A stretch of 64,000 bases of DNA from Halorubrum salinum (GTDB lineage Archaea > Halobacteriota > Halobacteria > Halobacteriales > Haloferacaceae), in NCBI RefSeq assembly GCF_024494575.1, contig NZ_JANHDO010000001.1:992001-1056000 (forward strand), in the 5' to 3' direction. This document shows positions 2,686-64,000 of this stretch, piece after piece. A model generated the notes under the pieces. It was not told where the DNA came from, ran no database searches, and saw nothing but the letters and a program-made list of their open reading frames with translations. Every line of letters begins with the position of its first letter. Positions within the stretch are counted from its first letter, which is position 1. The position numbers were made by a program, and so were the translations under genes.

Positions 2686-7121
<4,436 letters not shown>

Positions 7122-60302: not shown

Positions 60303-61907
60303 ATGGAGCTGTTCTGGCACCGGCGTGACCTGCGGCTCGCCGACAACGTCGGGCTCGCGGCCGCGGCCGACCGCCGTGGAGCCGAGGGGAACGCGGACGG
60401 GGACGTCACCGAGACCGACGCGGTCGCGGGGATGTTCGTCTTCGACGACGACGTACTCGCCCACGCGAGCGACGTCCGCGTGCGACGACTCCTCGACGGA
60501 CTCGCGGCACTGCGGGCGAACTACCGCGACCGCGGCAGCGACCTCCTCGTCGCTCGCGGCGACCCGACCGACGTCCTGCCGGCGGTCGCCGACGCCCTCG
60601 ACGCCGAGCGCGTCGTCTGGAACCGAGACTACTCCGGGCTCGCGAGGGAGCGGGACGCGGCGGTCCGCAGAGCGCTCGCAGACGCCGATATAGACCGCGA
60701 AGCGCACCACGACGCGGTGTTGCACACGCCGGACTCGATCCGGACCAACGCCGGTGACCCGTACTCCGTGTACACCTACTACTGGAAGAAGTGGACCGAC
60801 CGCGAGGTCGACGATCCGGCGTCGACGCCGGGAGACGCGTGTCTCGTCGACCCGGAGCCGTTGCGGGCGGCTGTCGAGCGGCTCGGCGAGGGGGCGGTAA
60901 CGGACGGCGGCGTCGCGAGCGACCGCGTCGCCGTCGGCGACCTACCGTCTCTCACGGCCCTCGGATTCTCGGAGCCCGACGCGGAGATCGGTTCGGCCGG
61001 GACCGCGGCCGCCCGCGAACGGCTCGACGACTTCCTCGACGAGGCGGTGTTCGCTTACGGCGCGGAGCGCGACTACCCCGCCCGGGAGGCGACCTCGCGG
61101 CTGTCGACGTTCCTCAAGTACGGCGAGATCGGAGTACGAGAGGTGTACGCGGCGACGGAGGCGGCGATGGAGAGGGCCGAAGGGCGGGTCGGAGACGGCG
61201 CGGGCGGGGGAGACGAGGATGATGGAAACGGTGCAGCGAGTGAGGGGGACGCCGACGGCGACGAGGACCCGGTCGCCGCGGTCGAGGAGTACCAGCAGCA
61301 GCTCGCGTGGCGGGAGTTCTACACGCAGGTGCTCTTTCACAACCCCGAGGTGGTATCGTCGAACTACAAGACGTACGAGGAGGGGATCGACTGGCGCGAC
61401 GACCCCGAGGAGATCGCGGCGTGGAAGCGCGGCGAAACGGGGTATCCCATCGTCGACGCCGGGATGCGCCAGCTTCGCGCGGAGGCGTTCATGCACAACC
61501 GCGTGCGGATGATCGTCGCCTCGTTCCTGACGAAGGACCTGCTCGCGGACTGGCGGCACGGCTACGACCACTTCCGCGAGCGGCTCGCCGACCACGACAC
61601 CGCAAACGACAACGGCGGCTGGCAGTGGGCGGCCTCCACGGGCACCGACGCGCAGCCCTATTTCCGCATCTTCAATCCGATGACGCAGGGCGAGCGCTAC
61701 GACCCCGACGCGGAGTACATCAGAGAGTACGTGCCCGAGTTGCGGGGACTCGACCCCGATCTGATCCACGAGTGGCACGAGCTGTCGCCCACCCAGCGCG
61801 CGAACGCCGCGCCAGACTACCCGGCACCGATCGTCGACCACTCGGAGCGGCGCGAAAAGGCGCTGGCGATGTACAAGCGGGCGCGCGGCGAGGATCCGGA
61901 AGAATAA
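60303..61907 (+). CDS. Cryptochrome/photolyase family protein (CPD-type photolyase)
   Basis: A 534-residue flavoprotein that uses light to split pyrimidine dimers. The N-terminal antenna domain (MELFWHRRDLRLADNVGL, VWNRDYS) is followed by the FAD domain: TSRLSTFLKYGEIGVREV, QQQLAWREFY, GYPIVDAGMRQLRAEAFMHNRVRMIVASFLTKDL, DTANDNGGWQWAASTGTDAQPYFRIFNP. The last segment has the substrate- and flavin-binding Asn and Trp residues of class I CPD photolyases. A low-complexity Gly/Asp/Glu insert (about 298-322) interrupts the FAD domain in a surface position. Confidence 0.93.
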   Translation: MELFWHRRDLRLADNVGLAAAADRRGAEGNADGDVTETDAVAGMFVFDDDVLAHASDVRVRRLLDGLAALRANYRDRGSDLLVARGDPTDVLPAVADALDAERVVWNRDYSGLARERDAAVRRALADADIDREAHHDAVLHTPDSIRTNAGDPYSVYTYYWKKWTDREVDDPASTPGDACLVDPEPLRAAVERLGEGAVTDGGVASDRVAVGDLPSLTALGFSEPDAEIGSAGTAAARERLDDFLDEAVFAYGAERDYPAREATSRLSTFLKYGEIGVREVYAATEAAMERAEGRVGDGAGGGDEDDGNGAASEGDADGDEDPVAAVEEYQQQLAWREFYTQVLFHNPEVVSSNYKTYEEGIDWRDDPEEIAAWKRGETGYPIVDAGMRQLRAEAFMHNRVRMIVASFLTKDLLADWRHGYDHFRERLADHDTANDNGGWQWAASTGTDAQPYFRIFNPMTQGERYDPDAEYIREYVPELRGLDPDLIHEWHELSPTQRANAAPDYPAPIVDHSERREKALAMYKRARGEDPEE

Positions 61908-61966: not shown

Positions 61967-62182
61967 CCGCTCGCTCATAAATGACTGATCGGGCTCCGTT
62001 GAAATCCTATTCTTCAGACATATTCTCGCCTGAAACGTCTGGTCGCCGAAAAGTGCGTGTTGTTCGTAACGACGAACTGGTTCGCGTACACGTCCATCAA
62101 TAGAGCAGTCGGACCTGAGCACCCTGATTGGACTGGATTTAGGTTGTGTTTGATATAGCGTAACATATCGACTATGTCAATG

Positions 62183-62194
62183 TATCTATATATG
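62183..62194 (+). promoter_or_regulatory. TATA box of the CPBP protease gene
   Basis: TATCTATATATG lies about 26 nt before the ATG at 62216. It is inside the mobile element, so the cargo gene carries its own promoter. Confidence 0.6.
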
Positions 62195-62215
62195 CTCGCG
62201 TAGCGTACAGTGCAT

Positions 62216-63022
62216 ATGGTATCGATTGTCGAACGTCGTCCAGTCGGATTCACACTCGGGCTCACAGCCGGTCTTATCGTGTTAACACTACTTGCACGGG
62301 CTGTCCTTGAGGTTGCAATCCCACAGTTGACGCTACACGGGATCGGTCTCGTTCTCAATTGGACCATCGTTGCAGGGAGTATCGTGCTCGTCACTTGGCT
62401 CGGTTGGTGGGACAAGATCCGACTCACAGCACCAGTCAATCGACGTGCAGTTGTCTATCTGCTCCCCTTCGCAGCTGTGGTCTTGGTCCCAGCTATGTTC
62501 GGCCTCGCAATCCCCGAGATCTCGCTCATTCAAGACCAAACCCTGCCACCGTGGGCCGCACTCGCCGTGATCGTCGTCGGCGTGGCACTGGGTGCCGCCA
62601 TCTCCGAGGAATTGATTTACCGTGGGGTGTTGCTCCGGGCGCTGGAGCCTCGCAGCCGCCTGCTAGCTGTCGTACTGCCGGCCACGATGTTTGGTCTGGC
62701 TCATATCTCACAAGTCATCCTCGGGAATTCGCTGGCTGAGTGGCTTCCACAGATGCTACTGATCATTCCCTTGGGGATCGGCCTCGGCGCAATTGCCCTC
62801 CGACTAGAGAGCCTCTGGCCGCTCGTCGTCTGGCACTTCGCAGTTGACGTGACCGGGTCATTGGTAGCGACGACATCAGTGGTCTACGAACTGATCACAA
62901 TCGGATTCGTCCTGCTTGCCGGAGTGATTGGGGTGTGGCTGCTCTGGCAGGACCGGCGATCGAGACACGATATACACCGTCAGCTTAGCACGAATGTCGA
63001 CGAGATCGGTGCGCGAAAATAA
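62216..63022 (+). CDS. CPBP-family intramembrane metalloprotease (mobile-element cargo)
   Basis: A 268-residue protein with about eight TMs and the CPBP (Abi/CAAX protease) motifs: EELIYRG (Glu-Glu-x3-Arg), FGLAHI (His) and HFAVD (His-x3-Asp). Such proteases cleave prenylated or other membrane substrates and in bacteria are linked to bacteriocin self-immunity. Codon choice (many A/T-ending codons) is unlike the neighbours. It lies wholly between the ends of the IS6-like element. The TATA box favours the ATG at 62216 over the codon 6 nt earlier. Confidence 0.85.
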   Translation: MVSIVERRPVGFTLGLTAGLIVLTLLARAVLEVAIPQLTLHGIGLVLNWTIVAGSIVLVTWLGWWDKIRLTAPVNRRAVVYLLPFAAVVLVPAMFGLAIPEISLIQDQTLPPWAALAVIVVGVALGAAISEELIYRGVLLRALEPRSRLLAVVLPATMFGLAHISQVILGNSLAEWLPQMLLIIPLGIGLGAIALRLESLWPLVVWHFAVDVTGSLVATTSVVYELITIGFVLLAGVIGVWLLWQDRRSRHDIHRQLSTNVDEIGARK

Positions 63023-63154
63023 CAAGAGCATCTACAAGAGTTGACTCGAAACAAACGTGGGACGTGAGTCTCCTATATTGACCACAACTGATTCAAAATA
63101 TATCTTTTTCTGAGGATTTCAACAGAGCCATTGATCGGAGATCGACTGTGACTA

Positions 63155-63447
63155 CCTCCAAAGCCCCAGTCGCGACGGCTCGCGCGCCTTGCTGCGCGCC
63201 TCGCTCAGTCGCTGTCGCTCCTTCGCTGCGGTGCTTACTGCGGCGTGCTTCGCCCTCGCGACTGGGGCTTTGAGTCCCGCCCCGCACCGCACAGCACCGC
63301 ACCTCACGCCTCCCCAGCCTCGCGGCTCCCTTCGGTCGCCGCGTCCAGCGAGAATCAAAGGTTCTCTGGCAGCCGGCGCGTAGCGCCGGCAACCTCGCGC
63401 GTGCGGTTCGCGGCCTGTCGGCCGCTCACCGGCACGCGCCGACCGCA
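63155..63447 (-). repeat. Three-block repeat element, copy B, with a large inverted repeat
   Basis: The same three blocks as copy A occur here on the minus strand: block 1 at 63431-63447 (17 bp identical), block 2 at 63299-63322 (24 bp identical) and block 3 at 63155-63167 (13 bp identical). Between blocks 3 and 2 a 17-bp perfect inverted repeat CAAAGCCCCAGTCGCGA (63159-63175) / TCGCGACTGGGGCTTTG (63256-63272) encloses 80 bp. Open frames here are shadow-like. The gap from 63023 to 63460 holds no normal gene besides this. Confidence 0.6.
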
Positions 63448-63460
63448 CCGCGGTTTCTAT

Positions 63461-64000
63461 TCAAAACAGCGCCTCGCTCTCGTCGAGCAGGTGAGCCGGA
63501 CCGCCGACCTCCCAGACGTCGGTGTCGATCCCGATCTCCGCGATCCGGCTTTCGACCTCGTCGACGTGGTCGGCCAGCGTGTTCACGTACACCGAGGCTC
63601 CGGTGTCCGTCGAGAAGTAGACGGGAACGCCCTCCTCGCGAAGCTCGCGGACCGCGTTGAACACGGCGATCGTCTCGGGCTGCCAGTACACCCACCCCGC
63701 GGGACCGGTCATCGTGGTGGCCGTGAGAGAGAGCGAGTCGTGTTCCGCCGTCTCGAAGATCCGGTCGAACTCGCCGTCGCGCAGGGCGTCCGTCATCTCG
63801 ACGAGCTGGTCTTGCACGTGCGCGGTCCGCGCCTGCATCATGTGGCTCTCGGCCGCCTCGCGGTGGGCCTCCTCCGTCTCCTTGTACGCGGGGACGTGCG
63901 CGGCGACGATCCGGAGGTCCTCCTCGGGGTCGAAACCGTCCTCGCTCACGCCAACGTCGAGCCGGTGTGACCGGCAGTCGGCGTCGTTGAGGCCGGCGTC
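63461..64000 (-). CDS. mvaD: Mevalonate-pathway decarboxylase (diphospho-/phosphomevalonate decarboxylase), 3' part
   Basis: The C-terminal 179 residues of a GHMP-superfamily decarboxylase; the frame is open to the window edge, so the start lies outside. Visible parts are LNDADCRSHRLDVG, LRIVAAHVPAYKETEEAHREAAES, the conserved FETAEHDSLSLTATTMTG and GWVYWQPETIAVFNAVRELREEGVPVYFSTDTGASVYVNTL, which match the decarboxylases that make isopentenyl (di)phosphate for archaeal lipids. Haloarchaea are known to use the phosphomevalonate variant; sequence here does not separate them. An internal GTG at 63949 is not the start. Confidence 0.85.
   Translation of the reverse strand, partial: DAGLNDADCRSHRLDVGVSEDGFDPEEDLRIVAAHVPAYKETEEAHREAAESHMMQARTAHVQDQLVEMTDALRDGEFDRIFETAEHDSLSLTATTMTGPAGWVYWQPETIAVFNAVRELREEGVPVYFSTDTGASVYVNTLADHVDEVESRIAEIGIDTDVWEVGGPAHLLDESEALF

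Follow-up and report, generated by a model that had tools for sequence, protein, structure and literature searches.

The window, that is, the whole stretch of Halorubrum salinum DNA that was analysed (64,000 nucleotides), contains a segment of 1138 bp measured end to end (61992-63129), located between a photolyase gene and an opposite-strand gene with a weak match to mevalonate diphosphate decarboxylase (mvaD). The segment is AT-richer than its surroundings (∼50-60% GC inside versus 67-72% outside), its 17-bp inverted ends are complementary at 16 positions, and it is flanked by an 8-bp direct repeat (ACTGATCG and ATTGATCG) identical at 7 of 8 positions. The only recognisable gene inside codes for a protein whose sole protein-family match is Rce1-like/CPBP PF02517 (E 6.7e-18; 65 bits against a cut-off of 22.4) and which has all three motifs EExxxR, FxxxH and HxxxD/N. 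The sequence TATATAT lies ∼26 bp before the ATG of this gene, a spacing which suggests a leaderless transcript. The inverted ends, the direct repeat, the AT-richer interior and the single CPBP gene with its own TATA box had been described in an earlier sequence-only reading of the window and were reproduced when measured. No transposase or transposase remnant was found inside the segment or within the window.

Table 1. Features of the 1138-bp segment and its neighbours (window positions)
Feature	Position	Strand	Basis
Photolyase gene, neighbour of the insert	60303-61907	+	
Left target-site duplication ACTGATCG	61984..61991	.	7/8 match to 63130-63137
A-type element end, ∼66 bp, starting with the 17-bp terminal inverted repeat 61992-62008	61992..62057	+	89% identity to the 66-bp family A end
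TATA-like promoter element of the passenger gene, leaderless spacing	62187..62193	+	Sequence; conserved in the G030 copy
Passenger gene, CPBP (Rce1-like) intramembrane glutamic protease, 268 aa	62216..63022	+	PF02517; EELIYR, FGLAH, HFAVD
B-type element end, ∼60 bp, finishing in the 17-bp terminal inverted repeat 63113-63129	63070..63129	-	B-end scaffold common with transposase-less members
Right target-site duplication ATTGATCG	63130..63137	.	Sequence
Opposite-strand neighbour, weak mvaD match below the curated cut-off	63461-63949	-	

With up to two mismatches, the 17-mer end occurs 20 times in the 2.73-Mb genome, versus none for a reversed-pattern control, and the 66-bp A end is also present at several other places in this genome. 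End matches were detected in 50 of the 52 congeneric genomes. Direct 8-bp repeats of at least 7/8 were found at 53 of 189 end pairs, versus a mean of 0.15 for displaced flanks. Since the genomic matches exceed the control and the duplications are far above the level of the displaced flanks, the ends are not a product of chance.

Empty sites, which the sequence-only reading had proposed to look for, do exist, and the segment is not shared by all relatives at this locus. The photolyase/mvaD intergenic stretch lacks the insert in nine congeners, where the joined flanks used as a query align across the join with 73-79% identity (G047, G042, G016, G044, G010, G004, G002, G031, G050). In the uninterrupted site of G042 (L204) the octamer is present once (AGTTGATCG) and the join reads ATAAACAGTTGATCGCGGATCGG, while the window has two copies of the octamer with 1138 bp between them. 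The eight other congeners also lack the insert, and some of them diverge more at the site. The proposal that the segment is a transposase-less single-gene cargo unit which has been mobilised is thus upheld by a real target duplication and by empty sites in relatives.

The cassette is adjoined by an intergenic repeat (63155-63450; CTCCAAAGCCCCAGTCGCGACGGC...) with inverted arms at 63159-63179 and 63252-63272. Matches to this repeat are found by the dozen in other Halorubrum genomes; its exact core occurs a single time in the window genome.

Elements sharing the terminal sequences

In many loci, identical 17-bp ends bound a 273-aa IS5-family transposase (NF033579, E 9e-64; PF01609), for which the RefSeq annotation reads 'IS5-like element ISHla2 family' (NC_012030.1). 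Exact 8-bp duplications flank such transposase-bearing elements as L108 (TCAGAATT), L109 (AGATATGT), L110 (GATTTTCT), L111 (AATCGTTT), L112 (GAAGAAGC) and L122 (ACTATTTC). On the basis of the RefSeq annotation and the shared ends, those of the window are assigned to an IS5-family, ISHla2-type element. The name ISHla2 was not found in the literature searched. The window element shares with the ISHla2-type IS5 elements of Halobacteria the 17-bp termini, related subterminal sequence and an 8-bp target duplication (7/8 in the window). These elements, however, encode a transposase of their own, whereas the CPBP gene is the only ORF inside the window element, which hence represents a non-autonomous derivative and not an IS.

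A search of GTDB genomes with an exact 26-bp A end returned 73 stretches, distributed among Halorubrum, Haloferax, Natrinema, Natrialba, Halopenitus, Haloplanus, Halohasta, Halobellus, Halorussus and other genera; no exact A-end match was found in viral_contigs. When the count is limited to distinct interiors that have the two ends as well as an 8-bp repeat matching at 7 or more positions, 59 unique elements remain across Halobacteria, 49 of them with an 8/8 duplication. The conserved ends comprise ∼66 bp (A) and ∼35-60 bp (B). Twelve of the 59 elements combine the transposase with a further gene or ORF, and the other 47 (178-2466 bp) are devoid of transposase, most of them with one passenger. 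The passengers are nearly all different and include the CPBP protease, an SBF-type transporter, TnpB with a lipoprotein, VapBC, a uracil-DNA-glycosylase-like protein, DUF5518, lipoproteins, many small hydrophobic proteins and, together with a transposase, dihydroxy-acid dehydratase. The smallest elements contain no convincing ORF and have the appearance of ordinary MITEs. In the window genome itself, the A end is shared by a PQQ-repeat protein cassette (C1:232463-233983), for which no duplication was scored, by an SBF-family transporter cassette (C2:96163-97853) and by a cassette with TnpB and a lipoprotein (C5:75606-77901).

One locus of the same genome (L062; G000:C1:785430-787607) holds a cassette within a cassette of the same family, at 2931-5108 and 3290-5045, with an inner duplication of 8/8 (TACGCGCT) and an outer one of 7/8.

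Several members are composite. In L157 of Haloferax gibbonsii the first 177 bp equal a free-standing 178-bp MITE (L193) apart from one base, the difference being a single-base indel beside an N; next to this MITE part lie a 3-TM gene, the transposase and finally the distal end, and an 8/8 outer duplication encloses all 1595 bp. L155 starts with a complete transposase-less cassette and continues with a transposase and a second end. A complete 950-bp IS forms the right side of L112, the duplication of which belongs to the outer 1651 bp; its passenger recurs without transposase in L251. Internal A ends were also seen in L057 and L257, and the transposase is kept alongside passengers in L108-L112, L146 and L157. 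Internal ends combined with exact outer duplications fit a pairing of outer ends followed by loss of inner parts. Genes may accordingly have been captured by end-skipping, in which the transposase would bring together the outermost ends of two adjacent copies and mobilise the gene enclosed by them; subsequent loss of the inner ends and the transposase would leave one-gene cassettes such as that of the window.

The CPBP gene and its second cassette

Other copies of the segment had been suggested as a further check, and a second CPBP cassette was indeed detected in a second species (G030:C26), at an unrelated locus. The two CPBP proteins are 97% identical, and the DNA is 92% identical over 62054-63069. 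The second cassette is a 1253-bp element, likewise transposase-less, with a different A end and a different B-end subtype. Its duplication matches at 5 of 8 positions, all three differences being transitions, and is a decayed one. According to the translations, the G030 gene has HNH-type and pentapeptide-repeat-like ORFs on one side and a MazG-like ORF on the other.

The dN/dS ratio is 0.08 between the window and G030 cassette genes and 0.13 against a non-cassette homologue. The former value indicates that the CPBP gene has been kept functional by purifying selection. Close homologues are present in only 12 of 170 family genomes. Homologues in other genera, with amino acid identities from 85% down to 42%, are without cassette ends, so the gene was captured from an ordinary gene of a chromosome or plasmid, or is shared with one. 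A PADLOC search for a defence role of the cassette gave no match, no CPBP match was found in phage records, and no solved-structure relative of the protein was found by sequence. As to the benefit for the host, one can only guess at the processing of membrane or exported proteins, or at immunity against a toxin that acts on the envelope, for instance a halocin.

Proposed mobilisation in trans and alternative readings

Taken on its sequence, the window segment is very probably a non-autonomous mobile insertion cassette, in which IS5/ISHla2-type A and B ends enclose a CPBP gene with its own promoter and which would be mobilised in trans. Supplied from another place in the cell, an ISHla2-type transposase would recognise the 17-bp inverted repeat together with 40-60 bp of subterminal sequence and move the cassette, presumably by cut-and-paste chemistry, leaving an 8-bp target duplication from an 8-bp staggered target. 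The only recognised related transposase of the window genome (G000:C2:112099-112917) is 68% identical, and its one visible end has 3 mismatches to the 17-bp cassette end; hence a partner may exist, may have diverged or may have been lost. The divergence of this transposase and the imperfect duplications (7/8 in the window, 5/8 in G030) count against this explanation.

It is rather improbable that a complete ISHla2-type element with both transposase and CPBP gene was inserted here and that its transposase was later deleted in place, the element having never moved in transposase-less form. Such a course of events would agree with the existence of transposase-bearing elements with passengers. It would also agree with the look of the B end in transposase-less members, where, on inspection, the 3'-flank of the transposase seems to run directly into the terminal B core. 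For the family as a whole, this join probably reflects an early deletion of the transposase gene in a common scaffold. However, the B-end type of the window is common to transposase-less members across genera, which points to an old shared scaffold and not to a local deletion; the G030 copy, too, is transposase-less at another site, and the window retains no transposase remnant.

Much less tenable is the assignment made in the sequence-only reading, namely an IS6-like element, here moved by an IS6 transposase. Eight-bp duplications and a GG..CTGTT-like tip are also among the traits of IS6 (PMC7986276), and an IS6-type transposase gene occurs in the window genome. Nevertheless, the 8-bp duplication is not diagnostic, because the IS5/ISHla2-type relatives make 8 bp as well, and at the resolvable loci of IS6-type transposases in the genus the ends are different ones (GGCGGTGTTCAGATAAG, GGTCGTGTTTAGTTAAG, GGTCGCGTTAAGTTAGA, GGCACTGTCTAGTTAAG). 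Meanwhile, the exact cassette ends repeatedly flank the IS5 transposase with target duplications, and no DDE_Tnp_IS240-type transposase is found within the element or, among the resolvable loci of the genus, between such ends. The IS6 reading is already contradicted. Finally, the least credible reading of all is that of a normal gene of the chromosome which happens to lie between inverted repeats: CPBP genes are common in haloarchaea, but the ends are found again throughout the genome and the genus, accompanied by many more duplications than chance would give, close homologues are as rare as stated above, and relatives lack a CPBP gene between photolyase and mvaD, empty sites which already contradict this reading.

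Transposase-less cargo cassettes have been named in Bacillus, where the ends of MIC231 are those of IS231 (IS4 family), and are rarely annotated. The mobile insertion cassette is a concept listed in ISsaga (PMC3129680). In agreement with it, the window element combines IS ends, a passenger and a target duplication with the absence of a transposase, and the same cassette is found at more than one site, with different end subtypes in the G030:C26 copy. MIC231 of Bacillus cereus, a mobile insertion cassette referred to in PMC6542083, resembles the window element in that its passenger gene(s) are enclosed by IS ends, a transposase is lacking and mobilisation in trans is presumed. Unlike MIC231, the window element is archaeal, has IS5/ISHla2-type ends and is one of dozens with nearly unique, mostly membrane-protein passengers. 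Transporter IS (tIS) also carry passenger genes (PMC3129680; for IS6 PMC7986276), unrelated to transposition and placed between IS ends; yet they keep their transposase, as do L108-L112, L146 and L157, while the window element has none. Haloarchaeal MITEs have been described in Haloquadratum (PMC3119063), and for those such as ISH2 the ISH8 transposase is reported to provide mobilisation in trans (PMC10264941). They are likewise transposase-free and dependent on a transposase in trans. MITEs, however, are short, non-coding and usually multicopy, whereas the window cassette contains a conserved gene of 268 codons under purifying selection and nearly every element of the family is unique. The kind of element is thus already known from mobile insertion cassettes, transporter IS and trans-mobilised haloarchaeal MITEs, but its archaeal scale and its envelope-protein bias appear to be undescribed: no account of archaea-wide one-gene cassettes based on IS5/ISHla2, or of such a bias, was found in the openly accessible literature searched.

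Passenger genes of the cassettes

Membrane passengers are strongly over-represented in the cassettes. By a crude hydrophobicity rule, applied to a sample that ignores phylogeny, the longest ORF contains a strongly hydrophobic 19-residue segment in 32 of 54 passenger regions, versus a mean of 7.5 and a maximum of 16 in 200 draws of length-matched windows of flanking DNA. In an earlier set the count was 25 of 42, versus 1.3 in dinucleotide shuffles. The excess is kept within size classes when compared to size-matched flanking ORFs (55-100 aa, 72% versus 13%; 100-160 aa, 60% versus 29%), and a lipobox-like start was seen in four further passengers. An artefact of the ORF-choosing rule was considered and rejected, since the excess survives the use of the longest ORF only, shuffles, length-matched windows and size-matched ORFs.

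Transposase-less cassettes are apparently a common vehicle of single genes across haloarchaea. One may tentatively go further and suppose, at somewhat less than even chances, that a gene-cassette economy operates in Halobacteria, in which ISHla2-type IS5 ends repeatedly capture single genes, preferentially those of small membrane or exported proteins, and spread them with or without a transposase, so that an integron-like reservoir of envelope functions, the CPBP cassette included, is formed. Captured genes, composite intermediates and empty sites can all be read from sequence, which makes gene capture by archaeal IS ends directly testable, and the cassettes point to a pool of uncharacterised membrane proteins kept mobile by selection.

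Several other passengers deserve mention. At G000:C5:75606-77901 (L010 1107-3402) the same ends hold TnpB (OrfB_IS605), a relative of RNA-guided nucleases lying here inside an IS5-type cassette, together with a lipoprotein gene. VapBC-like toxin-antitoxin passengers with the same ends are found in two Halorubrum genomes (L057 1505-3056; L036 626-1568). A 3-kb element of Natrialba aegyptia (L192 660-3698), flanked by an 8/8 duplication, contains between the same ends a dihydroxy-acid dehydratase (IlvD) gene and also keeps remains of the IS5 transposase. Close relatives at other sites were found for further passengers as well (L140/L269 and L132/L196). Recurrent families of small (60-135 aa) membrane proteins, which bear no Pfam names, are carried by the cassettes of different species (L132, L196, L137, L158, L034, L040, L140, L269).
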